Below, piece after piece: positions 10,330 through 61,737 of a stretch of 64,000 nt of DNA; the stretch's first letter is position 1; every line of letters begins with the position of its first letter. The notes beneath the pieces are model-generated. The model saw only the letters and a program-made list of their open reading frames with translations. It searched no databases and was not told the origin of the DNA. Origin of the DNA: Methanomassiliicoccales archaeon. Lineage in GTDB: Archaea > Thermoplasmatota > Thermoplasmata > Methanomassiliicoccales > UBA472. Position numbers and translations under genes: made by a program. The stretch is from contig DASXVU010000048.1 of NCBI GenBank assembly GCA_036504055.1, positions 1-64,000 of the forward strand, given 5' to 3'.

Positions 10330-12267
10330 TCACATCCCCAGCGCCTTCCTCTTCATCTCGATGTGGTCAGACATCAGCGCTGCCGCGTTCAACGGGCTCG
10401 GTTCCACCCAGAACTTGGCGTGGACCAGTCCATCGAGGTCCTCGGTCAGGGTCTTGATCACGTTGTGGCTCCCACCGATGTGCGGCATCACCCCGAGACA
10501 TACGCTGACCCCGCTGCCCACGAAATAGCTGCCGATCGCAACCGCCTTCGGAGAATACCATTCTGGAGCCGCCCCTACCACCGGCAGTTGATCGATCCGC
10601 ACTCCAGCCGTTCTTGCCAGTTCCGCGACCAGAGCCAGGATCCGGCTGTTGTCGACGCAGGATCCCATGTGCAGGACCGGTGGTATCCCAAGGGAACCGC
10701 AGACCTCCTGCAGGCCCTTTCCGGCCTGGTCGATGGACCTCGGCTGCAGCAGTCCCGCCTTGGCGCAGGCGATGGACGAACAGCCTGTCTCGACGCACAG
10801 GATGTCCCGTTTGATGAGTTCCTTGGCCAATGTGACGTGCCCATAGTCATGCTTGATCCGGGGATTGTTGCAGCCGACGATCCCCGCGCAGCCTCTGATC
10901 TTGCCCGATGCCACCGCGTCCAGCAGAGGCTTGAGGCTTCCTCCCAGTGCCTTCCTGATCGATTCCACCGAGAATCCTACCATGGCATCGACCGGGGCGT
11001 CTGGAATCAACACCCGTTCCTTCACCCGGTTGGGATAGTTGTCGATGGCAGCGGCGACGATCTTCTTTGATTGCTCGAATGCGTTCTCCGGTGTGATCTC
11101 TACGTAATAGCTGCCCTGAATGACGGCCTTCGGCGATGTCGTGAACAACATCGTGTGGTAACAGGAGGAGGTGTTCGCCAGTGTCGGGAATATGCATTGA
11201 TAGTCGACGACCATGGCCTCCAGCGCACCGGTGGTTATCACCAGTTCCTGGTCCAGATGGTTGCCCGCCTGAGGTATGCCTTTACGCATCAGCAGCTCAT
11301 TGCCGGTGCAGCACAATCCCACCAGATTGATCCCGCTGGCCCCTACGCCCTTTGCCCGGGAGATCATTTCCGGCAGGTTCGCCACATTGACGATCATTTC
11401 CGAGAGGATCGGATTGTGTCCATGCAGGGATATGTTCACCTGGTCATGCTTTAGCACTCCCAAGTTGACCTTAGAACTCTTTATGCTCGGGGTTCCGAAC
11501 AGAACGTCCGAGATCTCCGTGCCCATCATCGAGCCGCCCCAGCCATCGGCCATGGAGGCCCGCATTCCCTGCAGCAGGAATCCTGAATAGTCAGCGCCGA
11601 CCCCCATATGGACCCGGTGCATCGCCTCGACAACTTCCCGGTCTATGCTTCTCGGCAGAATGCCCGCCGCCTTCCACATGTCGACGCATGCCTGCGGTGC
11701 CCTCTTCGGCATCTGCATCTCCCCCTTGATGGTCCCGAACTCTTCAAGCATGGCCAAGGCCAGCTTCTCTGCCTTCTGGTTTATGGTGTCCGATTCGGGC
11801 AATCCGTACTCGGCCGCAAGCAGTTTCAGCTTCTCCTCATCCTTGACCATATAACCGGGGGCTTTCCCTCTGGCGGTCTTCAGCAGCGTCTCTACGACCT
11901 CTCGTCCGTGATCCGAATGGGAGGCAGCCCCGGTCGCCATCGTATCAAGAAGGTTTCTGGCCACCATCAGGTCGGCATCGGCACCGCAGACTCCTCTGGT
12001 ACGGTCCCCGCCCATTAGCCGGCAAGGGCCCATGGCACACCGCTGGCAGGATATCCCTTCGGTGCAGAACTTGCACTGCGGCTGTTGCCTTTCGAACCTG
12101 TCCCAGACGGTGTCGGTCCCTTCCTTCATCGTCTTACGCAGGACATCCTGTGTCGACCTATCCAATGCCCGTTCCTTGACCTTCTCCTCGATCTCGTCGG
12201 GCTTGAACTTCTTGATCGGGACCTTCAGGCACTCCACTGATTCAATTTCGGGCAGATCATTATCCAT
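10330..12267 (-). CDS. cooS: Anaerobic carbon monoxide dehydrogenase catalytic subunit
   Basis: Ni-Fe-S CO dehydrogenase of 645 residues, interconverting CO and CO2 with ferredoxin-level electrons. The N-terminal cluster ligands (C65, C68, C74, C77, C82 in CKFCTEGISCQRCAMGPC) and the active-site C-cluster segments GLCCTGNELL, GCNNPRIKHDYGH, ETGCSSIACAKAG and MGSCVDNSR are all present. ATG 12267 has a GGTGA ribosome-binding sequence 8 bp upstream; an open frame continues to 12387 but is not needed. No cooF, cooC, cooA, acetyl-CoA synthase or energy-converting hydrogenase lies in the window, so this is a solo CooS. Reduced ferredoxin from it could feed the Fpo-like complex at 54.5-64 kb. Confidence 0.92.
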   Translation of the reverse strand: MDNDLPEIESVECLKVPIKKFKPDEIEEKVKERALDRSTQDVLRKTMKEGTDTVWDRFERQQPQCKFCTEGISCQRCAMGPCRLMGGDRTRGVCGADADLMVARNLLDTMATGAASHSDHGREVVETLLKTARGKAPGYMVKDEEKLKLLAAEYGLPESDTINQKAEKLALAMLEEFGTIKGEMQMPKRAPQACVDMWKAAGILPRSIDREVVEAMHRVHMGVGADYSGFLLQGMRASMADGWGGSMMGTEISDVLFGTPSIKSSKVNLGVLKHDQVNISLHGHNPILSEMIVNVANLPEMISRAKGVGASGINLVGLCCTGNELLMRKGIPQAGNHLDQELVITTGALEAMVVDYQCIFPTLANTSSCYHTMLFTTSPKAVIQGSYYVEITPENAFEQSKKIVAAAIDNYPNRVKERVLIPDAPVDAMVGFSVESIRKALGGSLKPLLDAVASGKIRGCAGIVGCNNPRIKHDYGHVTLAKELIKRDILCVETGCSSIACAKAGLLQPRSIDQAGKGLQEVCGSLGIPPVLHMGSCVDNSRILALVAELARTAGVRIDQLPVVGAAPEWYSPKAVAIGSYFVGSGVSVCLGVMPHIGGSHNVIKTLTEDLDGLVHAKFWVEPSPLNAAALMSDHIEMKRKALGM

Positions 12268-12437
12268 GAGAATTTCACCAATCGGTATGATGACTTGTCG
12301 TTTCAACACACCCGATGGCATATATTGGTTTGGTTCGTCCCTCGGTTGGCCAGAGTGGCGATTGTTAAGGGAAACCGCCAGATGCAACTAGAACAGCATG
12401 ACGGCGGCAGGGTTCGTGGTGGTAGAAAATGAAGAGG

Positions 12438-12471: not shown

Positions 12472-13401
12472 CTAGACGACCGTCGTGGCCCTCCGATCCC
12501 TAAGAGCGGCGATCTTGTCCTTCAGCAGGAACAGCAGGCTGGCATAGGCCAGGACGCCAAGGATCGGGAATATGATCAGTCCGGCGGCGTTCGCTCCGCC
12601 TATCGCTGGGTCGTTGTTCAAGACCTCGACCAATGCCATGGCGTTGACCGCTGTTCCCATGGTGATGAAGAACCCAAAGAACAGTAGCACCACTGGATAG
12701 GCCTTCTTCGGCTTGGAGAGCATCAGAATGATCGCCAGGTATCCGATCGGTATGGATATCCCCAGGTCCAGGAATCGTACCATCCAGAAGCTTGTAGGGG
12801 CTCCTGAGTATGAGCCGGTCGCCGTGTCCCCGGTGGACATGACCTGGGAGATCTCCATGACCCACATCATTGCGAATATGAACAGGAACAGCGAAAGGAA
12901 TCCGACATACGCCTTTAGGGTTCTCGGTTTGAACTCGGGGGCATCTGCCGGGGTGAACTTCGACAGGTTGCCAAGCAGCAGGAACAGCCCGCCGATCACC
13001 AGGATCAGGAACAGCCAGGCGTATTGCTCGAAGTTGCCGGTGATGTTCGGGTTGCTCCACTCCTGGCCCACACCGACGGAGATGCCGGTGTACATGAGAG
13101 TGATCGGGGTCAGTATGAGGAAGTACTTGGATGAGCTCTTGCGGGCAAGTTCCAGAGTCCCTCCGATCAGCAGCAGCGGCGCGATCAACACCAGATTGAC
13201 GATGTCATTCCCCTCGTTCTGCCAGATCGCCGATTGGGATGTCCGGTAGTGTATATCTCCAAGGAATAGAGGTCCAAGGACGGCGATGGCGATCAGGACG
13301 ATGGCGCAGATTATCGCCACGGTTCCATTTACATACCATGGGAGTAGATGTTCGGTGGATTTTTCATCAGATTCTATTTTTGTCGAGACCAAGTTATGCA
13401 C
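12472..13401 (-). CDS. Polytopic membrane protein of unknown function
   Basis: A 309-residue integral membrane protein with about eight hydrophobic helices and a short charged N-terminal tail (IESDEKSTEHLLPW). The first helix is near 27-48. Conserved-looking loop sequences include GQEWSNPN after helix 3 and a proline-rich PADAPEFKPRT cytoplasmic loop. No transporter, quinone or metal motif was recognised. It follows the UbiD gene on the same strand after a 145-bp gap, so it may be a distal member of the quinone operon or an independent gene; a terminator hairpin closes it. Function cannot be given. Confidence 0.7.
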   Translation of the reverse strand: MHNLVSTKIESDEKSTEHLLPWYVNGTVAIICAIVLIAIAVLGPLFLGDIHYRTSQSAIWQNEGNDIVNLVLIAPLLLIGGTLELARKSSSKYFLILTPITLMYTGISVGVGQEWSNPNITGNFEQYAWLFLILVIGGLFLLLGNLSKFTPADAPEFKPRTLKAYVGFLSLFLFIFAMMWVMEISQVMSTGDTATGSYSGAPTSFWMVRFLDLGISIPIGYLAIILMLSKPKKAYPVVLLFFGFFITMGTAVNAMALVEVLNNDPAIGGANAAGLIIFPILGVLAYASLLFLLKDKIAALRDRRATTVV

Positions 13402-13546: not shown

Positions 13547-15358
13547 TTATCCTAGACCGAACTCCTTCTTCCTCTGCTCTATGCGGTTCTTGACATCCTT
13601 TGACATCTCGATCTCATCCGGCCACTCGCGCAGGTATCCGTCCGCCGATCCTTTCTTTGTGGCATCGATGACCGCCCCGCTTCCCGCCAGCTCGATGTCC
13701 CGCAGGGGGTCGACATTGTTGAACGCCTTCCAAAGGACCAAGGAGTCATCACCGAGGTCAATGTCATCATACAGGACCAGTGTTAATCCGAGCGATGATG
13801 CCACGGTCCTGATATGATCCTTGAGCTGTTTCGAGCTCTCTGTCCCCTTTTTCATGCCTATCAGCACGACCGGATTCCTGGTGTCGAGGCCGACCGATCT
13901 GGACGTCACCGGGGACTTCAGCCCCAGGATCGCAAACTGGACATCCTCTTCGCTCAACCGGCTGCCGGTCATTGTGGTCCTTGAGGGCTCCCCATCGACC
14001 CTATCGGTAGCGTCAATGCCCAGTTTGCCTCCGAACAGGGGGTTGGGGGCCGAATGGTCCAGAACGTCCAGGACGCCCTCGGTCATGACAAGGTCGTGGG
14101 ACAGGTCCAGGTTATCCTGGATCTTCTGCAGAAGCATTGGCGGGTCTTTGAGCAGTCTCGGATCATCGACCACCACGATCATCTTGGCGAAGCTCATCTG
14201 GTTGTTGCCCCACAAGGCGCTCATGACCTTGCGGGCCTGCATGGGATACTCCTTCTGAATGGCCACCACGACGATATTATGGAAAACACCTTCCCAGGGC
14301 ATCCAGTAGTCAATGATCTCGGGCAGGATCTTCATCAATGGAGGAAGGAACACCCTTTCAGTGGCCTTAGCCATATAGCAGTCCTCCATGGGTGGCCTCC
14401 CCACCACCGTGGCGCTGTAAACAGCGTTCCTACGATGGGTTATCGCCGTGACATGGAATACCGGGTAGTCTCCCTGGAGCGAATAGTACCCAGTATGGTC
14501 GCCGAACGGCCCTTCCACTCGCTTTTCCTCGGGATCGACATAACCTTCCAGGACGAACTCCGATTCCGCTGGGACCTCCATGTCGATCGTCCTGCATTTG
14601 ACCATCTCCACAGGGGACCCGCGGATGAACCCGGCCAGTATCATCTCGTCAATTCCCTGAGGCATCGGTGCCGTCGCTGCATATGTGATCGAAGGATCGG
14701 TTCCGATGGCAACTGCCACAGGCATCCTTTTGCCCAGCTTCTTATAGCCGTTGAAATTGTGACGGCCGTCCTTATGGATGTGCCAGTGCATGCCGGTCGT
14801 ATTCCTGTCGAAGACCTGCATGCGGTACATTCCGGCATTTCTGTGGCGTCCTTCGACATCCTTGGTGAATACGACCGGCAGCGTGATGAACCGTCCCCCA
14901 TCCTGGGGCCAACATTGCAGGACCGGTAATTCAGAGAGATCAACATAATCTCCTGTAACCACAACTTCTTGGCAAGGGGCCCGGGAGCTTTTTACGGTAC
15001 GTGGGAACGCTTTGGAGAGGGAAAGGAGCTCGGGCAGCATGCCCAGCTTTCCCATCAAGCCCTCAGGCGGCGCAGTGTCCAGCAATCCACCGATCTTCTT
15101 CTCCAGCTCGTCAAGGCTGTCACAGCCCAGCGACATCGCCATCCGCCGTTCTGACCCAAAGGCGTTGGTCAGGACCGGGAACGATGAACCGGTCACCTTT
15201 TCGAACAAAAGAGCTTTCCCTCCGTTCGGACTTTTGGACATGCGGTCGGTCACTTCGGTTATCTCCAGAAGTGGCGACACCTCTCCCTTCACGCGGAACA
15301 GCTCCCCTTCCCTCTCCAACCGAGATATGAAATCGGCAAGGCTGCTGTAGTGCATCAT
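13547..15358 (-). CDS. UbiD-family decarboxylase, late menaquinone synthesis (MqnL-like)
   Basis: Prenylated-FMN-dependent decarboxylase of 603 residues. The conserved UbiD segments NAGMYRMQVFD with HWHIHKDG (174-198) and EGPFGDHTGYYS (282-293), which hold the metal/prFMN ligands and catalytic acids, are intact. Length fits the long UbiD branch used in menaquinone synthesis, where it removes the ring carboxylate after prenylation. Its start overlaps the UbiE gene stop by 4 bp, within an operon that also supplies a UbiA domain. No UbiX-type prFMN synthase gene is in the window, so that must be elsewhere. A non-quinone aromatic acid substrate is the alternative. Confidence 0.85.
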   Translation of the reverse strand: MMHYSSLADFISRLEREGELFRVKGEVSPLLEITEVTDRMSKSPNGGKALLFEKVTGSSFPVLTNAFGSERRMAMSLGCDSLDELEKKIGGLLDTAPPEGLMGKLGMLPELLSLSKAFPRTVKSSRAPCQEVVVTGDYVDLSELPVLQCWPQDGGRFITLPVVFTKDVEGRHRNAGMYRMQVFDRNTTGMHWHIHKDGRHNFNGYKKLGKRMPVAVAIGTDPSITYAATAPMPQGIDEMILAGFIRGSPVEMVKCRTIDMEVPAESEFVLEGYVDPEEKRVEGPFGDHTGYYSLQGDYPVFHVTAITHRRNAVYSATVVGRPPMEDCYMAKATERVFLPPLMKILPEIIDYWMPWEGVFHNIVVVAIQKEYPMQARKVMSALWGNNQMSFAKMIVVVDDPRLLKDPPMLLQKIQDNLDLSHDLVMTEGVLDVLDHSAPNPLFGGKLGIDATDRVDGEPSRTTMTGSRLSEEDVQFAILGLKSPVTSRSVGLDTRNPVVLIGMKKGTESSKQLKDHIRTVASSLGLTLVLYDDIDLGDDSLVLWKAFNNVDPLRDIELAGSGAVIDATKKGSADGYLREWPDEIEMSKDVKNRIEQRKKEFGLG

Positions 15359-16074
15359 TTTCCCTCCTTCTCCAGAATGTAAAGGTGGCAGATGCCCTGG
15401 GTCTGGGAGATCGAGCGGATGACCTTGAATCCCTTGGAGACCATGGTCTTCTCCAGCTCTACCGGCGTTGGGAAAGTGAGGATGGAGTCGCTCAGGTAAC
15501 GGTAGGCGGCGAGGTCTCCAGATTGCATGCTACCGATCAGCGGCAGTATCTGCGTGAGATAGGTGAGGTACAGCGGCCGGGTGATCCGACAGACCGGAAC
15601 GGAGAGCTCGAGCACGGCGAAACGTCCTCCGGTCCTCAATACCCGATTGACCTCTTCCAGGAAACCCCCAACATCCGGGACGTTCCGGATCCCGAAGGCC
15701 ACCATGGCCTTGTCGAACGTCCCCTCCCTGAACGGCATCAACAGTGCATTGCCCTGTATGGCCGGGAACGCCGAGCCAAGCCTCTTCCTCTCCCATTTAC
15801 TGACCGCGATCTCAAGCATGTTGCGCGAGAGGTCGATGCCCACCATGGAGCAGTCCGCCCGAGTAAGGGCCTGTATGGCCATGTCCCCGGTCCCGGTGGC
15901 GATGTCCAGGACCAGCTCCCCGTCCTTGAGCTCGAGGCAATCCAGGGCTTGTCCCCTCCAGATCCGGTCGATCGACATGGACATCAGGTGGTTCAGGCGG
16001 TCGTAGGTGGGGGTGATGTCATCGAACAGTCCTTCGATCCTTTCCGGGTTCTTATCCAGTTCCAAATCCTTCAC
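15355..16074 (-). CDS. Demethylmenaquinone/ubiquinone C-methyltransferase (UbiE/MenG family)
   Basis: SAM-dependent methyltransferase of 239 residues, expected to carry out the final C-methylation of demethylmenaquinol. SAM motif I is DIATGTGDM (57-65); FGIRNVPD near 128 and the YRYLSDSILTFP segment near 192-203 are characteristic of UbiE/MenG rather than of generic methyltransferases. It begins 34 bp after the permease-UbiA fusion gene and overlaps the UbiD gene by 4 bp, so translation is coupled. Among UbiE homologues some methylate other lipids, but the neighbours make quinone methylation the best reading. Confidence 0.88.
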   Translation of the reverse strand: MKDLELDKNPERIEGLFDDITPTYDRLNHLMSMSIDRIWRGQALDCLELKDGELVLDIATGTGDMAIQALTRADCSMVGIDLSRNMLEIAVSKWERKRLGSAFPAIQGNALLMPFREGTFDKAMVAFGIRNVPDVGGFLEEVNRVLRTGGRFAVLELSVPVCRITRPLYLTYLTQILPLIGSMQSGDLAAYRYLSDSILTFPTPVELEKTMVSKGFKVIRSISQTQGICHLYILEKEGK

Positions 16075-16108
16075 ACCCCAAAAGCGTTAATTCTCCATAC
16101 AGGTACGA

Positions 16109-17743
16109 TCAGACAAGAACCCCCAGGAGGACCGAGGCGAACACCATGATCGAGATCACGGCGTTGACATTGAAGAACGCGACGTTAACCTTGGAGAGAT
16201 CGGCCGGACGTACCAGCAGGTGCTCCACCACGAACATCACCCCGATCGCCGCCAGTCCGATCAGGTAGACCGTTCCCAGAGCGTACATCCAGAACAATGA
16301 GGCGAGCGAGACGAAGCTGACCACATGCAAGACCGACGAGATCATCAGCGCGTTCATCACGCCGTAACGGGATGGCATGGACCAAAGCCCTTCCTGCCTG
16401 TCGAATTCGATGTCCAAGCACGAATACAGGATGTCGAAACCGGCGATGTACGTTGTCAGTGCCAGTCCGAGCACCAGTATGCCCGGGGGAATAGAACCGG
16501 TGACCGCCACGCTGGCCCCCAGCGGCATCAGGCCGATCGAGATCCCCAGGATGATATGGCTAGCGGCCGTGAACCGCTTCGAATACGAATATCCCATGAC
16601 CACCCCAAGCACCGGGAAGGACAGCCAGAAGCACAATGGCGAGAGCATGGCGGCGGATACGACGAACACAGCGGCCGACACTATGACAAATATCAGTCCC
16701 TCCCGCATCGTCAGCATGCCGGACGGGATATGCCGCATCTTGGTCCTGGGGTTCTTGGCATCGATCTTCGCATCCACGACCCGGTTGAAGCCCATGGCCG
16801 CAGACCTTGCCCCGATGATCGCCAGGACCACCCAGAATATCATGGCGAAGGTGATCGGATTGTCCTTGGCCAGCAAAACGAGCGCCGCCAATCCGAAGGG
16901 GACCGCGAACACGCTGTGGCTCAGTTTTATCATCTGCGCATAGGAAGAGATCTTCGTCAGGACGGACCGGTCGTCTTCCGTCTCTTCAGTCACTTCTGGG
17001 ACCTCTTTCCACCGGCAGAGCCTCCGTTCCATATAGGTGAAAGCTTCGTAGAGGACGAGACCCAGTATGCTCATGGCGATGATGCCTACGAATATCTGGG
17101 TATACTGCAGATATCCCCATGCGTTATAGATCATGTATCCGAGACCGGTCGAGCCAGCGAAGGCCTCGGCGAAGAAGAGGACGGATATGGCCGTACCGGT
17201 CACGATCCGCAGGGACGTGAAACTGCTGGGGAGGGCCGCCGGAATGATCGCTTCCCGGAGAATGTCCTTGTTCGTGGCGTTCATGGACCTCATCGAATCG
17301 ATATACTTGCGGTCGATCGCGCTCACTCCTTCCTTGGTCGCCACCAGTATCTGGAAGAACACGATCAGCATGATCAGAAGTATCTTGGTAATATCGCCAA
17401 TACCGAAGAACACGAACAGCACCGGCAGGAACACCATCTTGGGGATCGGATAGGTCAGGAATATCAACGGGCTGAAGTAACGGTCCATCTTCTGACTATA
17501 GCCGATGAAGATGCCAAGCGGGAACGCCAGGCACCAGGCGAGAGCGATGGCCACGACGACCCGATATGCACTGATACCGAAATTGGACCAGAACACTGCG
17601 GTCTGAGCGGTGTCGATGAACGCTTCGAAGGTGGTCTCCGGGCTTGGGAGTATGGGTGACGATACCAGAAGCGAGACGATCGCCCAGACCATCAGGCCCA
17701 CCGCCAGGGAGAGCAGGTAACCGAACGCCCTCTGCCGGTTCAT
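16109..17743 (-). CDS. ABC importer permease fused to UbiA-type prenyltransferase
   Basis: One continuous 544-residue frame with two unrelated membrane domains. Residues 1-240 are a TauC/SsuC-type permease with about six helices and the EAA loop IDSMRSMNATNKDILREA (147-164). Residues 241-262 are an acidic cytoplasmic linker (VPEVTEETEDDRS). Residues 263-544 are a UbiA prenyltransferase with NRVVDAKIDAKN (320-331, the NxxxDxxxD Mg-diphosphate motif) and DILYSCLDIEFD (437-448, second Asp motif). The ATPase start overlaps by 4 bp upstream and UbiE/UbiD follow. The neighbours suggest the permease brings in an aromatic acid that the fused domain prenylates, as MqnP does with 1,4-dihydroxy-6-naphthoate. 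Substrate and coupling are inference; the fusion itself is read directly. Confidence 0.9.
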   Translation of the reverse strand: MNRQRAFGYLLSLAVGLMVWAIVSLLVSSPILPSPETTFEAFIDTAQTAVFWSNFGISAYRVVVAIALAWCLAFPLGIFIGYSQKMDRYFSPLIFLTYPIPKMVFLPVLFVFFGIGDITKILLIMLIVFFQILVATKEGVSAIDRKYIDSMRSMNATNKDILREAIIPAALPSSFTSLRIVTGTAISVLFFAEAFAGSTGLGYMIYNAWGYLQYTQIFVGIIAMSILGLVLYEAFTYMERRLCRWKEVPEVTEETEDDRSVLTKISSYAQMIKLSHSVFAVPFGLAALVLLAKDNPITFAMIFWVVLAIIGARSAAMGFNRVVDAKIDAKNPRTKMRHIPSGMLTMREGLIFVIVSAAVFVVSAAMLSPLCFWLSFPVLGVVMGYSYSKRFTAASHIILGISIGLMPLGASVAVTGSIPPGILVLGLALTTYIAGFDILYSCLDIEFDRQEGLWSMPSRYGVMNALMISSVLHVVSFVSLASLFWMYALGTVYLIGLAAIGVMFVVEHLLVRPADLSKVNVAFFNVNAVISIMVFASVLLGVLV

Positions 17744-18474
17744 ATTCCCTCCACCACCTTTCTTACCGCCTTACAGGTGGAGAAATAGGCATCGGTCCCG
17801 CGGTGCCCTGGTGATCCAGCCCCCGGGTTATCTATAATGGCCCTGATCGTGCATGGGCGGCCGCCGAGGACAAGTATCGAGTCACCCAGGAAGGCCGCCT
17901 CCTCGATGCTGTGGGTGACCACCACCATGGTCAGGCCGTTCCTCTCCCTGATGTCCAATAGCATCTCCTGCATTCTCTCTCTGGTGAGGGTGTCCAACGA
18001 CGAGAAGGGCTCGTCCATCAGGAGCAGTTTCGGCTCCGTGGCAAGCGCTCGTCCGATGGCGACCCTCTGCCGTTCTCCCCCGCTGAGCCTTGCGGGGTAG
18101 TGTTCATGGTGTACTTCCAGGCCAAGTTCCCCTATCAGGCGGTCCGCCCTTCTCTCCCTCTCTTCTTTAAGGGTTCCCCGCAGTTTCATGCCCAGGCATA
18201 CGTTCTCCATGACCGTCTTCCACGGAAGAAGGCCAAAATCCTGGAGGATGAAAGAGACCTCGGTTGACGGGCCCTCCACCGGTCTGCCGTTCACGGTAAC
18301 GATGCCGGTCGACCTCCTTGTCAGGCCAGCCAGAATGTAGAGCAGAGTGGTCTTCCCACAGCCAGAAGGCCCAATTATTGCCAAGGACCTGCCCTGTTCG
18401 ACCGAGAAGGTGAGATCGTCGATGACCTGAAAACCTCCCTCAAATGACTTGGACAGATGCTCAACGTTGATCAT
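17740..18474 (-). CDS. ABC importer ATPase, taurine/nitrate/aromatic type
   Basis: Nucleotide-binding subunit of 244 residues for the adjacent permease. Walker A GPSGCGKT (35-42), Q78 of the Q loop, signature LSGGERQ (130-136), Walker B LLLMDEP (150-156) and H188 of the H loop are all intact. The family (SsuB/TauB/NrtD-like) energises import of sulfonates, nitrate, thiamine precursors and aromatic acids. It sits between the substrate-binding protein gene (4-bp gap) and the permease-UbiA gene (4-bp overlap), so the transporter is encoded as one translational unit. Stoichiometry would normally be two ATPases to two permeases. Confidence 0.9.
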   Translation of the reverse strand: MINVEHLSKSFEGGFQVIDDLTFSVEQGRSLAIIGPSGCGKTTLLYILAGLTRRSTGIVTVNGRPVEGPSTEVSFILQDFGLLPWKTVMENVCLGMKLRGTLKEERERRADRLIGELGLEVHHEHYPARLSGGERQRVAIGRALATEPKLLLMDEPFSSLDTLTRERMQEMLLDIRERNGLTMVVVTHSIEEAAFLGDSILVLGGRPCTIRAIIDNPGAGSPGHRGTDAYFSTCKAVRKVVEGI

Positions 18475-18478
18475 GCTC

Positions 18479-19438
18479 TCACGGGTAAAGCTCCCGGGCC
18501 ACTATCGTATCATAGACCACGGCATTCTGGAGGATGACTTTGCCCGCTATCCAATCATAGACCTTCTGGAATTCCTGCAAGGTCGGGAGCGAAGTGCTGC
18601 TCAGCACGGGGAATGTGAAGTTGCCCTCGAGCGCCTTTGGGAAGCCGATATCCTTCTCCAAGACATCATAGTATCTGGTCGGGTCTTGGTTGACCGATTG
18701 GACGGTACTGTTATAGACCGTGAGCAGTTTCTTCACATCCTCGATGTGATCGGTTATGAATCCCGCTTTCATGCCGATGACGGTGGCGGTAATGTTGATC
18801 GTCCTGTCATCGGCGACCAGATGGGCTCCCGCCAATATTGCCTGCGTAGCATAGGGCTCAGGCAGGATCGCGAGGTCCACATTGTTCTGTACAAGTGACT
18901 GGTACCGCATCGGGATGGCCTTCAATTCGAATTTGCCGATCTTGCCGGTCATGTTCTTCTCGGCGAGAATGTCGTCAAGAACATATTCTGTGACGGTACC
19001 AGAGGATGTCGCCACCTCCATCCCGACCGTGGCGTTGATGTCGGAAATGTTGTTGTCAGGCGATGCAAGCAGACCGAACATACGTGCCTGTGGATTCGAA
19101 TGGTAGTCGATGGTAATGACCTTGACATCCTGACCGGATGATTTTAGCAGAATGGTATTGACCATGTCCCCGAAATAGCCGTCGATGGAGCCAGCTGTCA
19201 TTGCCGAATCCCTCTCCAGAGCACTCCCGAACTGGACCAGTTCGACGTTCAAACCTGCCTGTTCGAACAGCCCCCTTTCCTGGGCAGCGTACAACGGGAG
19301 CGTGTCGATCACTGGGAGGACCCCGATCTTGATCTTATCGGTCGTCTGTCCATTGGGTGATGTGACTATGAAGGCAGCAGCAGCAATGACTATTATGACC
19401 AATCCGACCGCTAGCAACTTGACACGAAGGCTTGCCAT
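18479..19438 (-). CDS. Membrane-anchored substrate-binding protein (NMT1/TauA/SsuA-like)
   Basis: Extracellular solute receptor of 319 residues for the adjacent importer. A single hydrophobic segment (about 7-26) acts as anchor or signal; no lipobox cysteine is present. The class II periplasmic-binding fold is seen in IKIGVLPVIDTLPLYAAQERGLFEQAGLNVELV (about 36-68, read in parts), GSIDGYFGDM and LAILPEPYATQAI. The first operon gene; a GGAG sequence precedes the ATG and a TATA-like AATAAACG lies 40 bp upstream on the minus strand. The same fold includes the menaquinone enzymes MqnA and MqnD, but the anchor and ABC neighbours argue for a receptor. Ligand is unknown; an aromatic quinone precursor is inferred from the operon. 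Confidence 0.85.
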   Translation of the reverse strand: MASLRVKLLAVGLVIIVIAAAAFIVTSPNGQTTDKIKIGVLPVIDTLPLYAAQERGLFEQAGLNVELVQFGSALERDSAMTAGSIDGYFGDMVNTILLKSSGQDVKVITIDYHSNPQARMFGLLASPDNNISDINATVGMEVATSSGTVTEYVLDDILAEKNMTGKIGKFELKAIPMRYQSLVQNNVDLAILPEPYATQAILAGAHLVADDRTINITATVIGMKAGFITDHIEDVKKLLTVYNSTVQSVNQDPTRYYDVLEKDIGFPKALEGNFTFPVLSSTSLPTLQEFQKVYDWIAGKVILQNAVVYDTIVARELYP

Positions 19439-19640: not shown

Positions 19641-19958
19641 ATGGAAGAATGGATACCAGTCTTGGATGAGAAGGTTCTGGATGAGAACGGCGGCACTGTC
19701 GTCACCGCCAAAGGGCTACCGATATTACTGATGAAGCGTTACGGACGGATATACGCCCTCGCGAACAAGTGCCCCCACATGGGTTGCACCTTGGGAGGTG
19801 GTTCCATAGATGGATACACTTTGACCTGTCCATGCCACGACTGGCAGTTCGACATCCGGACAGGAAGCATGGTGCCCCAGGACACTGGTGTTGTTCTTGG
19901 ATCCTATGAATGGAGGATCGATTCCGGCAAGATAGCGATCAAGGTAAGAGGTGATTGA
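19641..19958 (+). CDS. Rieske [2Fe-2S] ferredoxin-like protein
   Basis: Soluble Rieske protein of 105 residues, able to carry one electron. The cluster ligands are C44/H46 in CPHMGC and C63/H66 in CPCHDW; the CPHMG variant and absence of a membrane anchor fit Rieske-type ferredoxins rather than bc1 complexes. First gene of a compact plus-strand operon with glutaredoxin, a ferredoxin:thioredoxin-reductase-like protein and a second Rieske protein. Its stop is embedded in the region preceding the glutaredoxin start (2-bp gap). Likely partner is the FTR-like enzyme, but this is inferred from gene order. Confidence 0.85.
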   Translation: MEEWIPVLDEKVLDENGGTVVTAKGLPILLMKRYGRIYALANKCPHMGCTLGGGSIDGYTLTCPCHDWQFDIRTGSMVPQDTGVVLGSYEWRIDSGKIAIKVRGD

Positions 19959-19960
19959 TC

Positions 19961-20224
19961 ATGGAGCACAAGGTTACAGGATACACGCTAAGTTATTGTC
20001 CGTGGTGCAAGAAGACAAAGAAGTTCTTCCAGGAACATGGGATAAAATTCGACTACATCGATTATGATCTTCAGGATGAGAAGGAGCAGGAGCAGATAGA
20101 GGAGGAGATGCGCAAATACAGCAAGGGAGGGATAGCGTTCCCTTACGTTGTAATAGACGGTAACGTAGTGATCGGTTGGAATCCGGAAAGGTACGAGGAG
20201 CTCCTGAACCTCAAGAGCAAGTGA
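19961..20224 (+). CDS. Glutaredoxin-like protein
   Basis: Small thiol-disulfide oxidoreductase of about 87 residues with the active site CPWC (in SYCPWCKKT) and a cis-proline segment AFPYVVIDGNVVIGW near the end. The CPWC site and the GWNPERYEELL tail resemble archaeal and bacterial glutaredoxin/NrdH-type proteins. ATG 19961 is preceded by GAGGTGA with good spacing, so it was preferred over the TTG at 19955. Located between a Rieske gene and the FTR-like gene, it is the obvious candidate disulfide substrate of the latter. Archaea usually lack glutathione, so it probably works with protein thiols. Confidence 0.85.
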   Translation: MEHKVTGYTLSYCPWCKKTKKFFQEHGIKFDYIDYDLQDEKEQEQIEEEMRKYSKGGIAFPYVVIDGNVVIGWNPERYEELLNLKSK

Positions 20225-20229
20225 ATCAG

Positions 20230-20571
20230 ATGAACGATGAAATGAGAAAGAGGGCATTGATCGACCAGTTCACACCGGTCGTTGATGCCATGGGATACAA
20301 GTTCTCGCCGGACAAAGAGATCGTCTCTGACCTGCTCGATGCAGAGGTCATGCTTATGCATCAGACCAGCATCCCTTATTGCCCCTGTCAGGGCCGCACC
20401 AGGGACCGCAAAAAGGATATGCTGATCGTCTGCCCTTGCATTCCGCACCATAAGGCCCATTTCGATGCCATGAAGCGGTGCTGGTGTGGTTTGTTCGTGC
20501 ATAAGGACGTTGAAGATCCCAGCAAGTTGCGCCAGATACCCCTCGAAGTGGCCCTAGGGGGTAAGATTTGA
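20230..20571 (+). CDS. Ferredoxin:thioredoxin reductase catalytic subunit-like protein
   Basis: A 113-residue [4Fe-4S] disulfide reductase of the FTR beta family. Three cysteine pairs are visible: C51/C53 (CPCQ), C68/C70 (CPCI) and C84/C86 (CWCG). In plant-type FTR, four of the equivalent cysteines bind the cluster and the other two form the redox-active disulfide. Spacings here (14 and 13 residues between pairs) differ from the plant enzyme, in line with archaeal relatives. ATG 20230 follows the glutaredoxin stop by 5 bp. It likely passes electrons from a one-electron donor, perhaps the flanking Rieske proteins, to the adjacent glutaredoxin. Confidence 0.85.
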   Translation: MNDEMRKRALIDQFTPVVDAMGYKFSPDKEIVSDLLDAEVMLMHQTSIPYCPCQGRTRDRKKDMLIVCPCIPHHKAHFDAMKRCWCGLFVHKDVEDPSKLRQIPLEVALGGKI

Positions 20572-20951
20572 GGTCCAAGGTGGCTTTGGTGGGTGATATC
20601 CTGCCCGGTGGCATGATGTCCGTCCAGGCAAATGGCAAAGAGATGGTGCTCTGCAATGTGAACGGGACCTATCACGCGTTGGAAAGGCGGTGCGGTCACA
20701 TGAGCGCGCCGTTGGAGATGGGGACCCTGAACGGTTATGTCCTAACGTGCCCGATGCACGGCGCGCAATTCTCGGCGGTCACGGGCGAGGCGATCCACAG
20801 CTCGATCCCTCTGAATCGGTCACCGCCGAAGATCGATGGCCCATATGCCGTACCGGGATACCTTGCCAGGCTGATCGACAAGGTGAAGACGATGGACCTC
20901 AAGTCGTTCCCTGTAACTGTGGAAGGGGACGAGATATTCGTTGAAGCATGA
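20568..20951 (+). CDS. Second Rieske [2Fe-2S] protein
   Basis: A 127-residue soluble Rieske-domain protein. Cluster ligands are C42/H44 in RRCGHMSAPLE and C61/H64 in CPMHGAQF, a pattern like Rieske ferredoxins and oxygenase components. The C-terminal 40 residues (VPGYLARLIDKVKTMDLKSF) form an extra helix not seen in the first Rieske protein. Start is TTG 20568, overlapping the FTR-like stop by 4 bp and preceded by a GGGGG stretch. Having two different Rieske proteins bracket an FTR-like enzyme and glutaredoxin suggests two donors or an electron branch point. Confidence 0.82.
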   Translation: MRSKVALVGDILPGGMMSVQANGKEMVLCNVNGTYHALERRCGHMSAPLEMGTLNGYVLTCPMHGAQFSAVTGEAIHSSIPLNRSPPKIDGPYAVPGYLARLIDKVKTMDLKSFPVTVEGDEIFVEA

Positions 20952-54536: not shown

Positions 54537-54914
54537 ATGCTCGTAGACGATTATTATCCAATTGCTGTGTTCGTACTGGTGGCGATCATGTTCCCGGTAC
54601 TGGCCTTTGTTACGGCTAAGTTCTTTAGACCGACGAAGTACAGCACTCTAAGGGATACTACCTACGAGTGCGGAATGGAGCCCATCGGGCAAGCACAAAT
54701 CCAGTTCCATGTACAATTCTACATTTATGCCTTGGTCTTTGTTCTTTTTGATATCGTTACTGTTTTCTTGCTTGTTTGGGCTTTGACATATTCTGACGCT
54801 CTCTCCTCCATGGACCTGCTCGGTCAGGCAGGATTTTCTGCACTGGCGTTCATCGCCATCGGGTTGGTCGGAGTCTATTACGCATTGAAAAAGGAGGCCA
54901 TACTTTGGATCTAA
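54537..54914 (+). CDS. fpoA: Fpo/complex I subunit A
   Basis: NuoA/FpoA-family membrane subunit of 125 residues, three helices (about 8-30, 63-83 and 95-115). The conserved loop YECGMEPIG (43-51) at the quinone-channel region and FYIYALVFVLFDI are intact. First gene of a 12-gene operon; transcription probably begins at the ATG. Third-position base use looks more A/T-rich than in later genes of the operon. The fpoB start lies within its last codons. Confidence 0.92.
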   Translation: MLVDDYYPIAVFVLVAIMFPVLAFVTAKFFRPTKYSTLRDTTYECGMEPIGQAQIQFHVQFYIYALVFVLFDIVTVFLLVWALTYSDALSSMDLLGQAGFSALAFIAIGLVGVYYALKKEAILWI

Positions 54915-55465
54915 GCAATTCTCCCCAAATAATCACCATGACCGCCAAAGATTTCCAGAAGTGGTCCAGCAATTTCATGGTTGAAACCATGAAGGCCACC
55001 GGAGTCAAGCAGGCGGTCGACAAGATCACCGCTCCCATATGGTCTTGGGGGCAGAGGAACGCAATCTATCCGCTGGAGTTCGGTATAGCCTGTTGTTCGT
55101 TGGAATTCGCCGCGGCGTACGGTCCAAGATGGGATATGGAAAGGCTAGGGATGATCCCCCGTTCCTCTCCCAGACAGGCGGATGTTCTGCTCATCATGGG
55201 GTGGCTCTCCGCCAAACTGAGGCCGTCCCTGAGAAGGCTTTATGAGCAGATGCCGGAACCGAAATGGGTAATAGCCATGGGAGAATGCGCGATATCAGGA
55301 GGCCCATGGTATGATGGTTACAACGTCATTCAGGGACTGGACACGATCGTTCCGGTCGACATCTATATCCCTGGTTGCCCGCCGAGGCCAGAGGCCTTGA
55401 TTGATGGGATGCTGAAGCTGAACAGGAAGATAACCGCCGAGCAGAAGGGAAGCTTCCTGGATTGA
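54905..55465 (+). CDS. fpoB: Fpo/complex I subunit B (N2 cluster)
   Basis: NuoB/FpoB-family subunit of 186 residues that holds the N2 [4Fe-4S] cluster next to the quinone site. Ligands C63 and C64 (GIACCSLEF), C128 (MGECAISGG) and C158 (IPGCPPRPE) are all present. TTG 54905 gives a 10-bp overlap with fpoA; ATG 54938 (MTAKDFQ) is an alternative start. Sits between fpoA and fpoC. Confidence 0.95.
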   Translation: MDLSNSPQIITMTAKDFQKWSSNFMVETMKATGVKQAVDKITAPIWSWGQRNAIYPLEFGIACCSLEFAAAYGPRWDMERLGMIPRSSPRQADVLLIMGWLSAKLRPSLRRLYEQMPEPKWVIAMGECAISGGPWYDGYNVIQGLDTIVPVDIYIPGCPPRPEALIDGMLKLNRKITAEQKGSFLD

Positions 55466-55474
55466 GGTGGGAAA

Positions 55475-55951
55475 ATGACCGAGATGAGTCCCAAAGCCAA
55501 ATCTTTCACTGAGGAGCAGGTCGTTAAGGCCTTGACCGACAAGTTCCAGGACAAGGTCAAGGATGCAAAGATCAAACCGCGCCGGATAGTGCTCGACGCT
55601 GATCGTTCAGTCCTTCTGGAGATGTGCAAGACCCTTAAGGAAAGCTACGAGTTCGAACAATGCTCCTGCGTTTCCGGCGTCGATATGAAGACCTTCTTCC
55701 AGGTCGTCTATCACATTTCTTCCTATGCCAATAAGATGGTGATCCAGATTACGGTTGATATACCAAGAGACACCCCCGAGGTGGACTCGATAACCCCTCT
55801 GTATGGTGGGGCGAACTGGCACGAGCGCGAAGCCTATGACATGTTCGGGATCATCTTCAAAGGTCACCCGAGGATGGAACGTATCCTGTTGCCGCAGGAC
55901 TATCAGTTCTTCCCGCTGAGGAAGGACTACGAAGTGGGGAGGCGGATTTAA
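55475..55951 (+). CDS. fpoC: Fpo/complex I subunit C
   Basis: NuoC/FpoC-type 30-kDa-like subunit, 158 residues, part of the peripheral arm connecting module. The signature YGGANWHEREAYDMFGI (about 109-125) and the closing HPRMERILLPQDY and PLRKDYEVG are clear. Separate from fpoD, unlike fused NuoCD proteins. A GGTGG sequence precedes the ATG. Its stop overlaps the fpoD start by 1 bp. Confidence 0.93.
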   Translation: MTEMSPKAKSFTEEQVVKALTDKFQDKVKDAKIKPRRIVLDADRSVLLEMCKTLKESYEFEQCSCVSGVDMKTFFQVVYHISSYANKMVIQITVDIPRDTPEVDSITPLYGGANWHEREAYDMFGIIFKGHPRMERILLPQDYQFFPLRKDYEVGRRI

Positions 55952-57033
55952 TGACGGAAATGTGGGTCAATATGGGTCCGCAGCACCCCATGACGCATGG
56001 TCTGTGGAGCTTAAGGGTCAAGATCAACGGTGAGATCATCACCGATGCCGAGCCGATGATCGGTTATCTCCACCGCGGTTGGGAAAAGATGATGGAGAAT
56101 CGCGATTACCATCAGATCGTACCGCTCGCGGACCGGCTGTGCTACGCGTCGTCACTCTCCTGGTCTCACTTGTACTGTAAGACGGTAGAGGACCTATTGG
56201 AGCTTGAGGTGCCTGAACGCGCCCAGTGGATCAGGACGCTGACGCTGGAGATACAGAGGATCGCCTCTCATCTGATGTGGCTCGCGGCCATAGGGACCGA
56301 CCTTGGCTCCTACACCATGTTCCTCCTGCCAATGAGGGAGAGGGAGATGTTCTTGGACCTGATGACCGACCTGTCCGGTTCCAGGATGACCACGAACTAC
56401 CCCAGGATCGGAGGGGTCCGGAACGACCTCCCGCCCAACTGGGAGAGGGACACACTGCGCGTCCTCAACCTGTTCGAGAAGAGGCTCAGGGAGTTCGAGG
56501 CCCTGTTCGATGAATGCAGCGCCTTCCTGATGAGAACGAAGGGCGTGGGCAAGCTGTCCGGTCCGGAGGCCATCAACCTAGGAATGACCGGCCCGTTCAT
56601 GAGGGGCTGCAACGTTGATTTCGATCTACGGAGGGACGACCCCTACGAGAAGTACAGCGAGGTCGACTTCCGGGTGTGCACCCATCCTGACTGCGATTCA
56701 TATGCTAGGTACAGGGTCCGCATCGATGAGATGTACGAATCCTGCAATATCATCCGGCAATGCTTCCAAAAGATGAAGCAGGGTCCGGTCCGGGTCAAGT
56801 CGCCAAAGGCGGTACCGGCCGGGCGGGCGTTCGCCCATGTCGAGGACCCCAGGGGAGAGGGTCTGATGTACTTGATAAGCGACGGATCGGACAAACCATA
56901 CCGGTTGAAGGTCCGATCGCCCATATTCGTGATAGTATCCGGAATGCCAGCAGCACTGATCGGAGAGAAGGTGGCGGACATCCCCGCCATCATGGGCATG
57001 GCTGACATGTGCCTCGGTGAGACGGACAGGTGA
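55951..57033 (+). CDS. fpoD: Fpo/complex I subunit D (49-kDa-type)
   Basis: Quinone-site subunit of 360 residues related to NiFe-hydrogenase large subunits. N-terminal MGPQHPMTHG with the quinone-contact histidines, IGYLHRGWEK, and the C-terminal VADIPAIMGMADMCLGETDR tail (read in parts) are typical of NuoD/FpoD. The hydrogenase Ni-binding CxxC pairs are absent, so this is a true quinone- or phenazine-reducing type rather than a hydrogenase. Together with fpoB it forms the quinone-binding pocket. Confidence 0.95.
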   Translation: MTEMWVNMGPQHPMTHGLWSLRVKINGEIITDAEPMIGYLHRGWEKMMENRDYHQIVPLADRLCYASSLSWSHLYCKTVEDLLELEVPERAQWIRTLTLEIQRIASHLMWLAAIGTDLGSYTMFLLPMREREMFLDLMTDLSGSRMTTNYPRIGGVRNDLPPNWERDTLRVLNLFEKRLREFEALFDECSAFLMRTKGVGKLSGPEAINLGMTGPFMRGCNVDFDLRRDDPYEKYSEVDFRVCTHPDCDSYARYRVRIDEMYESCNIIRQCFQKMKQGPVRVKSPKAVPAGRAFAHVEDPRGEGLMYLISDGSDKPYRLKVRSPIFVIVSGMPAALIGEKVADIPAIMGMADMCLGETDR

Positions 57034-57038
57034 TCTAG

Positions 57039-58130
57039 ATGGTCGAAACTACACTCTTCAGTCTCTTGCACGGGCTCGCGTTGTGGATAGGCGAGGTCGC
57101 TCAATGGTTGATCAAGGTCACTGGAATAAAGGAGATACAGTTCATCGGTGACTGGGCGGTAACTGGTGGTCCAGTCAATTTCCTGACGATCCTGTTGGTC
57201 TGTGCCATATTCATGGTAGCAGCCCTGCTGGTAGGTATAACCTGCATCTGGCAGGAAAGGAAGGTCCTGGGCAGGATCATGGACCGGCGTGGCACCCAGG
57301 TCGGAATGCTGGGGCTGTTCCAGAACTTCGCTGATGCCATCAAGACCTTGTTGAAGGAACTGATCATCCCGAGGGACGCGGACAAGAAGCTGTTCATGTG
57401 GTCCGTGACCGGGTTGATCGGATCGTCCGTTCTGCTCCTGGGCCTGGTGCCCTGGAGCACCCGTTTCTTCGTAGCCAATCCTGAGCTGACACTTCTGATC
57501 GGTCTTGCCGTTTTCTCCCTGGCCCCGTTCTTCATCATGATCGGCGGGTGGGCCTCCAACAACAAATACTCGATGATCGGCGCGATGAGAGGGGCAGCCC
57601 AACTGATCGCCTATGAGATCCCGATCCTGATGGTCGTCCTTTCGATCATCATCATGACCGGAAGCCTGAACTTCAACGTCATCGTCGCATTCCAACAAAC
57701 GCACATGTGGCTGATGTTCCCGTTGTTCATCGGTTTCATCACATTCTTCGTATGCGGCATTGCAGAATCCGAAAGAGTCCCGTTCGACCTGCCCGAAGCA
57801 GAAGCGGAACTCGTCGAAGGCTGGCAGACCGAATATGGCAGCATCCAGTGGGGTCTGATAATGATGGCCGACTACCTTAGGGCGTACGTCGTAAGCGCGC
57901 TTATCACAGTGCTCTTCCTCGGGGGCTGGGACGGTCCCACGTTCCTATGGCCTGAGGTCTGGTACCTGATCAAGGTGTTCTTCGTCTTCTTCATCATGAT
58001 ATGGGTGAGGTCCGCAACAGTACGTATCAGGACGGACCAGCTCCTCAAGATCGGATGGAAGAGGCTTCTTCCGCTGTCCGTGGTCAACCTGGGAATCGCT
58101 GTCGTCATGAAGGCTATGGGGTGGTTCTGA
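57039..58130 (+). CDS. fpoH: Fpo/complex I subunit H
   Basis: NuoH/FpoH membrane subunit of 363 residues with about eight helices, forming the quinone entry channel. QERKVLGRIMDRRGTQVG, the glutamate-rich loop ERVPFDLPEAEAELVEGW (about 246-263) and the late WVRSATVRIRTDQLL are hallmarks. ATG 57039 follows the fpoD stop by 5 bp. It lies immediately before fpoI, as in Methanosarcina. Confidence 0.95.
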   Translation: MVETTLFSLLHGLALWIGEVAQWLIKVTGIKEIQFIGDWAVTGGPVNFLTILLVCAIFMVAALLVGITCIWQERKVLGRIMDRRGTQVGMLGLFQNFADAIKTLLKELIIPRDADKKLFMWSVTGLIGSSVLLLGLVPWSTRFFVANPELTLLIGLAVFSLAPFFIMIGGWASNNKYSMIGAMRGAAQLIAYEIPILMVVLSIIIMTGSLNFNVIVAFQQTHMWLMFPLFIGFITFFVCGIAESERVPFDLPEAEAELVEGWQTEYGSIQWGLIMMADYLRAYVVSALITVLFLGGWDGPTFLWPEVWYLIKVFFVFFIMIWVRSATVRIRTDQLLKIGWKRLLPLSVVNLGIAVVMKAMGWF

Positions 58131-58131
58131 A

Positions 58132-58878
58132 ATGGTCGAAAGCAGCAACAATCCGAGAGACAAGAAGCTGAGGGCCACCGGTTACATGCTGAAACCGCTT
58201 TGGGTCACGCTAAGGACCATGGTCCGGGTATCTCTTCCCGGTCACAGGCCGCGCACAATCATGTATCCCTGGGAGAAGAGCATAATCCCAGATTGTTTCC
58301 GCGGTCGGCCCGGTATCATCCTGGACAAGTGCATCGCCTGCCAAAAGTGCGTCAAGGTCTGTCCCACCACATGCATAAAGATGGTGCAGATCGAGCACGA
58401 GACCCTGGGCAAGGTCAAGCGCCCCGAGGTCAACGTCGGCAGGTGCATGATGTGCGGCAACTGCGCAGAGGTCTGCCCCACCAACGCGATGATCGTCACC
58501 CCGGAGTTCGAACTCGCTTCATACACTCGGGACGACCTGATCTATGACCCGATCAAGCTCCAGCACCCCTGGAAGGCTGGCTATGAGATCAACTACGAGG
58601 AGCAGCTGCCATCGAACATGAAGGGCCCCGCGGCCAAGAAAGGATCGATGGAGCTCAAGGACACGGTCTGCCTGGAAGCGAAGAAGTGCATCTCCTGCAG
58701 CCGCTGTGAGAAGACCTGCCCCACCGGGGCGGTGAAGATGACGGACACCGGAGAGGTCAACGAGAAGACCAAGAAACCGATCAAGAGGCCGGTCTTCGAC
58801 GATACCAAGTGCGTTTCATGCGAGATGTGCGTCGATGTCTGTCCTAAGGACTGCCTTACCATGAAGGAGGCGCAGTAA
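58132..58878 (+). CDS. fpoI: FpoI with four [4Fe-4S] motifs
   Basis: NuoI/FpoI-type electron-transfer subunit of 248 residues, longer than the roughly 130-180 residues usual for the family. The core holds clusters at C67/C70/C73/C77 and C105/C108/C111/C115. A second ferredoxin-like module at the C terminus adds C186/C189/C192/C196 and C227/C230/C233/C237. Two clusters are the normal N6a/N6b pair; the extra pair probably extends the electron input path. With no FpoF or NuoEFG in the operon, soluble ferredoxin is a likely direct donor. One base separates it from fpoH and none from fpoJ. Confidence 0.93.
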   Translation: MVESSNNPRDKKLRATGYMLKPLWVTLRTMVRVSLPGHRPRTIMYPWEKSIIPDCFRGRPGIILDKCIACQKCVKVCPTTCIKMVQIEHETLGKVKRPEVNVGRCMMCGNCAEVCPTNAMIVTPEFELASYTRDDLIYDPIKLQHPWKAGYEINYEEQLPSNMKGPAAKKGSMELKDTVCLEAKKCISCSRCEKTCPTGAVKMTDTGEVNEKTKKPIKRPVFDDTKCVSCEMCVDVCPKDCLTMKEAQ

Positions 58879-59145
58879 ATGGATCTGTCTGAGCTGTTAT
58901 TCTTGATTATCGCAGGTATCACCGTCGGCGCGGCGATCTCGGTCCTCGTGACCAAGGAGATCATCCGGGCCGTGTTCTACCTGACGTTCTGCTTCATTGG
59001 GGTGGGTATCACCTTCATCTTCCTGAACGCAGAGTTCCTGGGCCTCATCCAGGTGCTGGTCTATGTGGGAGCGATCAACGTGCTGATCCTGTTCGGGGTC
59101 ATGCTTACCAAGAGACGCCTCACTGGAGGTGGTGCCTGTGAGTAA
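58879..59145 (+). CDS. fpoJ: FpoJ N-terminal part
   Basis: First half of a split NuoJ/FpoJ membrane subunit, 88 residues, three helices. AVFYLTFCFIGVGITFIFLNAEFLGLIQVLVYVGAINVL (read in parts) is the conserved NuoJ core including the pi-bulge helix 3. The C-terminal half is encoded by the following overlapping gene. Splitting of fpoJ into two genes is known from Methanosarcina, so this is not a frameshift defect. Starts immediately after the fpoI stop. Confidence 0.9.
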   Translation: MDLSELLFLIIAGITVGAAISVLVTKEIIRAVFYLTFCFIGVGITFIFLNAEFLGLIQVLVYVGAINVLILFGVMLTKRRLTGGGACE

Positions 59146-59383
59146 GGCATCCGGTCTCGGAAATGCGATCGGAAAGACCGTCCTAGCGGCGGTCCTGCTG
59201 GTGTTCATAGGGGCGTCCATACTGTGGGTCACATGGCCTAGCGGGCCGATCGCTCAGTTCGCCTCGAAGGATTTCGGAACAATACTGTTCGAGAATTACG
59301 GCATGTTGGTCATTGTCCTGGGGCTTTTGCTCTTCGCCTCGATCACAGCCGGAGTCTTCATTGCACAGGAGGAAGAGCAATGA
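59138..59383 (+). CDS. fpoJ: FpoJ C-terminal part
   Basis: Second half of the split FpoJ subunit, about 81 residues with two hydrophobic helices (roughly 12-32 and 53-73) and an acidic end (AQEEEQ). GTG 59138 has GGAGGTG 6 bp upstream and is the most likely start, overlapping the first fpoJ gene by 8 bp; GTG 59129 is possible. It overlaps fpoK by 4 bp. Confidence 0.82.
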   Translation: MSKASGLGNAIGKTVLAAVLLVFIGASILWVTWPSGPIAQFASKDFGTILFENYGMLVIVLGLLLFASITAGVFIAQEEEQ

Positions 59384-59682: not shown

Positions 59683-59684
59683 GA

Positions 59685-61736: not shown

Positions 61737-61737
61737 A

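Follow-up and report, generated by a model that had tools for sequence, protein, structure and literature searches.

We have identified, in a 64,000-nucleotide stretch of DNA from a Methanomassiliicoccales archaeon (hereafter the window; all coordinates are window positions), an operon that joins an ATP-binding cassette (ABC) importer to enzymes of the kind that complete menaquinone synthesis. The operon occupies positions 13547-19438 of the minus strand and reads, 5' to 3', substrate-binding protein, ABC ATPase, permease-UbiA fusion, UbiE and UbiD. Gene content and genome comparison make it probable that this is a menaquinone salvage system, in which an imported dihydroxynaphthoate would be finished by the fused prenyltransferase, MqnL and MenG. 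Archaea that carry the operon but lack marker genes for ring synthesis, and unrelated bacteria with the same lack whose related importers are linked to quinone genes, would then probably build menaquinone on a ring that other microbes release as a precursor. A preliminary description of the window had drawn a similar inference, an importer feeding finishing enzymes, which is supported by the absent early-pathway markers, conserved gene order and bacterial linkage described below. What the importer carries, in which direction and how fast, the hand-over within the fusion protein and the final product are what we infer from these sequences.

The operon and its products

The five genes are tightly packed. 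A gap of 4 bp separates the binding protein gene from the ATPase gene, which overlaps the fusion gene by 4 bp; 34 bp lie between the fusion gene and ubiE, and ubiE overlaps ubiD by 4 bp. Each of the five minus-strand genes listed in the preliminary description was recovered in place as an open reading frame (ORF), and Pfam confirms the families (Table 1). Binding protein, permease and ATPase are encoded together and all belong to the NitT/TauT family. The ATPase motifs are intact (Walker A GPSGCGKT, signature LSGGERQ, Walker B LLLMDEP). The binding protein has an N-terminal hydrophobic helix as a membrane anchor and lacks a lipobox cysteine; its AlphaFold model (predicted local distance difference test score, pLDDT, 87.8) places a helix at residues 2-22, followed by a periplasmic binding protein fold. 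The structure model of the fusion protein has a moderate mean pLDDT (68), and values in the linker (residues 247-279) fall below 50.

The UbiD protein scores 629 bits against the MqnL equivalog, NCBIfam TIGR03701 'menaquinone biosynthesis decarboxylase' (cut-off 496), and fails the ubiquinone UbiD equivalog PRK10922 (382 bits, cut-off 788). UbiE passes TIGR01934 (215 bits, cut-off 158). The earlier assignments of these proteins as MqnL type and UbiE/MenG thus hold. Among five archaeal homologues of each protein, the UbiD catalytic region (e.g. R179, E271, E282) is invariant, as are the UbiA motifs NxxxDxxxD (N320/D324/D328) and DxxxD (D444/D448). The genome encodes further UbiA-family proteins, one most similar to geranylgeranylglycerol-phosphate geranylgeranyltransferase and two more distant.

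Homologues of UbiA, UbiD and UbiE serve ubiquinone synthesis as well, and the importer could carry another aromatic acid, such as 4-hydroxybenzoate, from which the operon would make a different prenylated quinone or quinol. The fused UbiA domain exceeds the cut-off of TIGR01475 'UbiA-like polyprenyltransferase', but its 230-241 bits with three MqnP models fall short of every cut-off (375-430), as such an alternative would allow. It is nonetheless far nearer to MqnP than to proteobacterial UbiA, whose model gives 102 bits, and is 41% identical to the MqnP of a bacterial locus described below (L074). Together with the UbiD scores, the lack of hydroxylases for ubiquinone-type ring modification in the operon, and bacterial cassettes of the same importer family that adjoin menA and mqnL/mqnP, this makes synthesis of a different quinone unlikely.

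A taurine, nitrate or sulfonate importer placed here by chance was also considered. This was ruled out by the fusion, the conserved gene order, the recurrent linkage in bacteria and the low Tau/Ssu scores: none of the importer parts reaches its cut-off (SsuA_fam 83 of 163.5 bits, TauB 218 of 357, TauC 123 of 342).

Table 1. Genes of the operon and domains of the fusion protein, with window positions
Feature	Position	Strand	Evidence
Substrate-binding protein, 319 aa, NMT1/SsuA-like	18479-19438	minus	Pfam NMT1 4.9e-15, NMT1_2 4.5e-13
ABC importer ATPase, 244 aa, TauB/SsuB-like	17740-18474	minus	ABC_tran 2.5e-32; taurine ATPase model 1.1e-64
Permease-UbiA fusion protein, 544 aa	16109-17743	minus	BPD_transp_1 plus UbiA in one ORF
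Permease domain of fusion, residues ~1-246, NitT/TauT type	17006-17743	minus	BPD_transp_1 1.1e-22
UbiA/MqnP-type prenyltransferase domain of fusion, residues ~258-543	16112-16972	minus	UbiA 4.5e-50
UbiE/MenG-type demethylmenaquinone methyltransferase, 239 aa, GTG start	15355-16074	minus	Ubie_methyltran 9.1e-53; TIGR01934
UbiD-family decarboxylase, MqnL type, 603 aa	13547-15358	minus	UbiD_N/UbiD/UbiD_C; TIGR03701

Conservation and early pathway genes in the archaea

The full-length fusion is present in five of 400 genomes of the class: that of the window and four relatives (G029, G032, G041, G043) from a different family of the same order, whose fusion proteins are 65-68% identical to that of the window. 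All four relatives keep the identical five-gene order. A scan of named genomes found the same order in three metagenome-assembled genome (MAG) records (L071-L073), namely Euryarchaeota archaeon AS22ysBPME_74, Methanomassiliicoccales archaeon PtaU1.Bin030 and Methanomassiliicoccus sp. QR_Bin.16; the last was taken to be the same genome as G029, so the named MAGs overlap the four relatives. The arrangement is thus not a product of chance, since both order and fusion recur, and an assembly error was ruled out because the fusion recurs in independent genomes at 64-67% identity. The genes that flank the operon in the window, for a carbon monoxide (CO) dehydrogenase and a 309-aa membrane protein, are not common to the loci of the relatives; the conserved unit is therefore the five genes.

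The preliminary description noted that no early mqnA-D genes lie near the operon. This observation extends to the whole genome (99.9% complete), in which neither MqnA, MqnD nor MqnC exceeds its cut-off. A search for PF02621, the family of MqnA and MqnD, gave no match in the genome of the window and nothing above cut-off in 60 relatives, but detected the family in four control genomes. The best MqnC score among the five operon-bearing genomes and four others is 38.7 bits (cut-off 428). MenD does not exceed its cut-off in any of the five operon-bearing genomes; the best matches in the genome of the window (69.9 bits at most, cut-off 244) are probably other thiamine-diphosphate enzymes. These negative results cover MqnA/D, MqnC and MenD; no search was made for MqnB, for the remaining Men genes or, with a model of its own, for MqnE. 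Assembly gaps could hardly explain why several genes are missing from many independent assemblies. Weak PF02621 matches in G043 and G053 (19-22 bits) lie below cut-off and were set aside; the match in G053 (L093) has an ABC ATPase gene next to it and resembles ordinary binding proteins of the NitT type.

A UbiX-sized flavoprotein is encoded outside the operon in all five operon-bearing genomes, which makes a supply of prenylated flavin mononucleotide (FMN) for UbiD plausible. It also occurs in relatives that lack the operon and is not diagnostic.

Instead of a naphthoate, the importer could take up an earlier intermediate of the futalosine pathway: futalosine, dehypoxanthine futalosine or its cyclic form. 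Such intermediates are soluble, and some of the linked bacteria described below keep mqnA, mqnC and mqnE. However, the archaea have no MqnC or MqnD over cut-off, so known enzymes could not finish these compounds, and we give this alternative the slightest weight of all.

Importer cassettes beside bacterial quinone genes

The closest kin of the archaeal permease domain are free-standing bacterial permeases (46-48% identity), whereas other NitT/TauT permeases of related archaea are only 28-34% identical to it. The bacterial cassettes are unfused and have the archaeal order of binding protein, ATPase and permease. In a 'Thermaerobacter' MAG (L074), the genes mqnL, mqnP and ubiX are followed by the binding protein, ATPase and permease genes. 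In an actinobacterial MAG (L077) and a genome of the same class (L145), the cassette is followed by menA, whose product exceeds the MenA cut-off.

We searched 398 genomes of the L074 phylum with a permease profile; 108 were positive at E <= 1e-55, an arbitrary threshold that may admit importers of other substrates. From this phylum 39 loci were taken regardless of content, and L145 was added. The cassette directly follows mqnL/mqnP/ubiX in L150, L152, L153, L156 and L161, as it does in L074; it encloses menA in L146, directly precedes ubiE/menG in L151 and shares a neighbourhood with mqnL/mqnP/ubiX in L149. Direct adjacency to quinone genes was found at 7 of the 39 loci, against about 0.2-0.4 expected by a rough binomial estimate. 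No permease relatives were found in plasmid records.

In a tree of 52 permeases, quinone-linked loci are scattered and require at least six changes of linkage state. Within the bacterial family the archaeal permeases make up a single clade, and their closest neighbour is L074, a placement with modest support (83). This nesting suggests that the archaeal permease was gained from bacteria and then fused to UbiA.

Early pathway genes are missing from some of the linked bacteria too. Three genomes in which mqnL-mqnP-ubiX lie by the cassette (G697, G709, G979; the last two nearly single-contig assemblies) lack both PF02621 and MenD, and G669, which is menA-linked, has neither MqnA/D nor MenD. These four share the archaeal combination of a linked importer with absence of MqnA/D and MenD. 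G1071 has no MenD; PF02621 was not searched there. Among the 108 permease-positive genomes, PF02621 is present in two copies in 18, in one copy in 34 and in none in 56, and MenD was found in only 4 of these 56. Among the 398 genomes, permease and MqnA/D co-occur above expectation (both in 52, permease only in 56, MqnA/D only in 52, neither in 238; odds ratio 4.25, p = 4e-9, with relatedness ignored), an association that we count in favour of a salvage system.

Several points weigh against a salvage system. MqnA/D is present in 52 of the 108 permease-positive bacterial genomes. The importer family may include other substrates or merely supplement synthesis, and is not exclusively a mark of auxotrophy, since half of its bacterial carriers have MqnA/D. 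At most of the other bacterial loci, the cassette has no quinone gene as a neighbour. The SsuA/TauA/THI5-like family of the binding protein is broad and does not reveal the ligand: in a fold search SsuA was closest, followed by Thi5, PqqT with pyrroloquinoline quinone (PQQ) and TauA, so that sulfonate, pyrimidine and PQQ binders alike are among its neighbours. The genomes, finally, are mostly MAGs or drafts.

The cell might, then, make its naphthoate by an undescribed early route, with the importer supplementary or carrying something unrelated. MqnA/D in half of the bacterial carriers fits this view, and alternative pathway enzymes such as MqnZ have been predicted before (PMC4746308). We nevertheless hold it to be quite unlikely: the permease is joined to the prenyltransferase in five of five archaeal genomes, the linkage recurs independently in bacteria, and the known early markers are absent from the five archaea and several linked bacteria.

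Alternatively, the importer could serve UbiX/UbiD and their prenylated FMN by bringing in a flavin or another precursor of a cofactor. The NMT1/THI5 family includes binders of cofactor precursors; Thi5, PqqT and proteins that bind thiamine or pyrimidines are among the fold neighbours of the binding protein, and several bacterial cassettes adjoin ubiX. However, the menA-linked cassettes (L077, L145, L146) serve a route that needs no prenylated FMN, and the archaeal permease is fused to a prenyltransferase, not to UbiX or UbiD. We judge uptake of a cofactor precursor very improbable.

We also considered the binding protein, whose broad fold class is also that of MqnA and MqnD, as a replacement for MqnD in bacteria that lack it, since G666 and G670-G672 each have one PF02621 copy. 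Exactly one strong copy was found in 74 of 398 genomes of the G666 phylum, and in G666 itself the single copy is MqnA-like, with mqnC on one side and mqnE on the other. These genomes agree with a report that some Firmicutes are without MqnD, with an unproven replacement (PMC4746308). The idea was not supported: of 30 genomes with two copies, 18 carry the permease as well, and the binding protein begins with a signal or anchor sequence.

Other features of the bacterial loci bear on transport and redox chemistry. A 505-aa protein in L149 (15345-16862, minus strand, G979) combines UbiX with an ABC_sub_bind (TrpX-like) domain directly after mqnP, with no evident signal sequence between the domains; it is a second, different link of a transport-type domain to late menaquinone genes. 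Upstream of the menA-linked cassettes in L077 and L145 lies a CCG-domain iron-sulfur protein gene, preceded in L077 by one for a nitrate-reductase-gamma-like membrane protein; this upstream region spans L077:5143-7141 and L145:5857-7173. A quinone-linked oxidoreductase is the probable identity of these upstream proteins.

A possible salvage route and its setting

By established or proposed chemistry, in the futalosine pathway MqnP prenylates 1,4-dihydroxy-6-naphthoate, MqnL removes the carboxylate and MenG methylates the ring. In the other route MenA both prenylates and decarboxylates 1,4-dihydroxy-2-naphthoate, with no need for UbiD or prenylated FMN. A dihydroxynaphthoate is the simplest type of ligand for a salvage importer because the family is linked both to mqnP/mqnL and to menA; in the archaea the 6-naphthoate is favoured because MqnL is present and the 2-naphthoate route needs no UbiD. 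The membrane-anchored binding protein would capture soluble dihydroxynaphthoate outside the cell, in archaea most likely 1,4-dihydroxy-6-naphthoate leaked by futalosine-pathway organisms; an aromatic acid is compatible with, though not demonstrated by, the modelled fold of this protein. ATPase and permease would import the naphthoate, and the permease-fused UbiA/MqnP domain would prenylate it on the inner side of the membrane. UbiD/MqnL would then remove the 6-carboxylate, using prenylated FMN supplied by a UbiX encoded elsewhere, and UbiE/MenG would methylate the ring to give menaquinone. A direct hand-over of substrate from permease to UbiA is our guess from the fusion. In bacteria that have MqnA/D, the importer may supplement synthesis.

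The joining of an ABC permease to a membrane enzyme of biosynthesis would be an unusual design. If the proposed route is correct, the ring may be prenylated while it enters through the fused channel-enzyme, and neighbours would supply the ring of the menaquinone that some members of a methanogen-related archaeal order use. Salvage would also predict that uncultured Methanomassiliicoccales relatives contain menaquinone and are nutritionally dependent, a prediction that could help their cultivation. The importer family could also explain why some genomes have late menaquinone genes but no early pathway.

Ravcheev and Thiele (2016) proposed that microbes exchange soluble menaquinone precursors and predicted transporters that 'remain to be annotated' (PMC4746308); the importer family gives this prediction a concrete candidate that can be tested and that occurs in two domains of life. 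A study of Lactiplantibacillus plantarum likewise states that quinone uptake pathways are yet to be identified (PMC10746273). In full-text open-access literature, a coverage that leaves out most subscription papers and bioRxiv preprints, we found neither an importer for menaquinone ring precursors nor a permease-UbiA fusion, and no report of menaquinone salvage in Methanomassiliicoccales; the salvage route itself is not described there either, in keeping with the preliminary description, which knew of no account of it. We lean, with modest confidence, toward the view that this is the first dedicated importer of a menaquinone ring precursor, that it belongs to a salvage pathway common to archaea and bacteria, and that in archaea the channel and first enzyme are one protein.

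Each part of the proposed system has known counterparts. The operon shares three reaction types with the late futalosine genes mqnP, mqnL, mqnM/ubiX and menG (PMC4746308), with UbiX elsewhere in the genome. Unlike that pathway, it occurs in archaea without MqnA, MqnC and MqnD, and its late genes are joined, and partly fused, to an ABC importer. It resembles the NitT/TauT importers SsuABC, TauABC, ThiXYZ and PqqT in its three-part layout, ATPase and permease family and binding-protein fold, but its permease belongs to a separate lineage, common to the bacterial quinone-linked cassettes, and carries a UbiA domain. As in the exchange of 1,4-dihydroxy-2-naphthoate or quinones in L. plantarum (PMC10746273), organisms without the early pathway would use head groups made by others; here, in contrast, archaea encode a putative dedicated importer together with the finishing enzymes, and its substrate is probably the 6-naphthoate.

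A complex I-like operon of the window (54537-63237), 35 kb from the proposed salvage operon, has recognisable subunits A, B, 49 kDa and H and antiporter subunits, and is a plausible quinone-reducing partner. To see whether the organism is a methanogen, 1.62 of the 2.66 Mb of the genome were scanned for McrA motifs, with none found in the part scanned. A CooS-type CO dehydrogenase gene lies at 10330-12387. Between it and the importer operon, a gene at 12472-13401 encodes the 309-aa protein, a predicted multi-pass membrane protein with no match in Pfam, NCBIfam or PHROGs. Divergent from the operon, a tight cluster at 19641-20951 encodes two Rieske proteins, a glutaredoxin-like protein and a cysteine-rich protein that by eye resembles ferredoxin:thioredoxin reductase.

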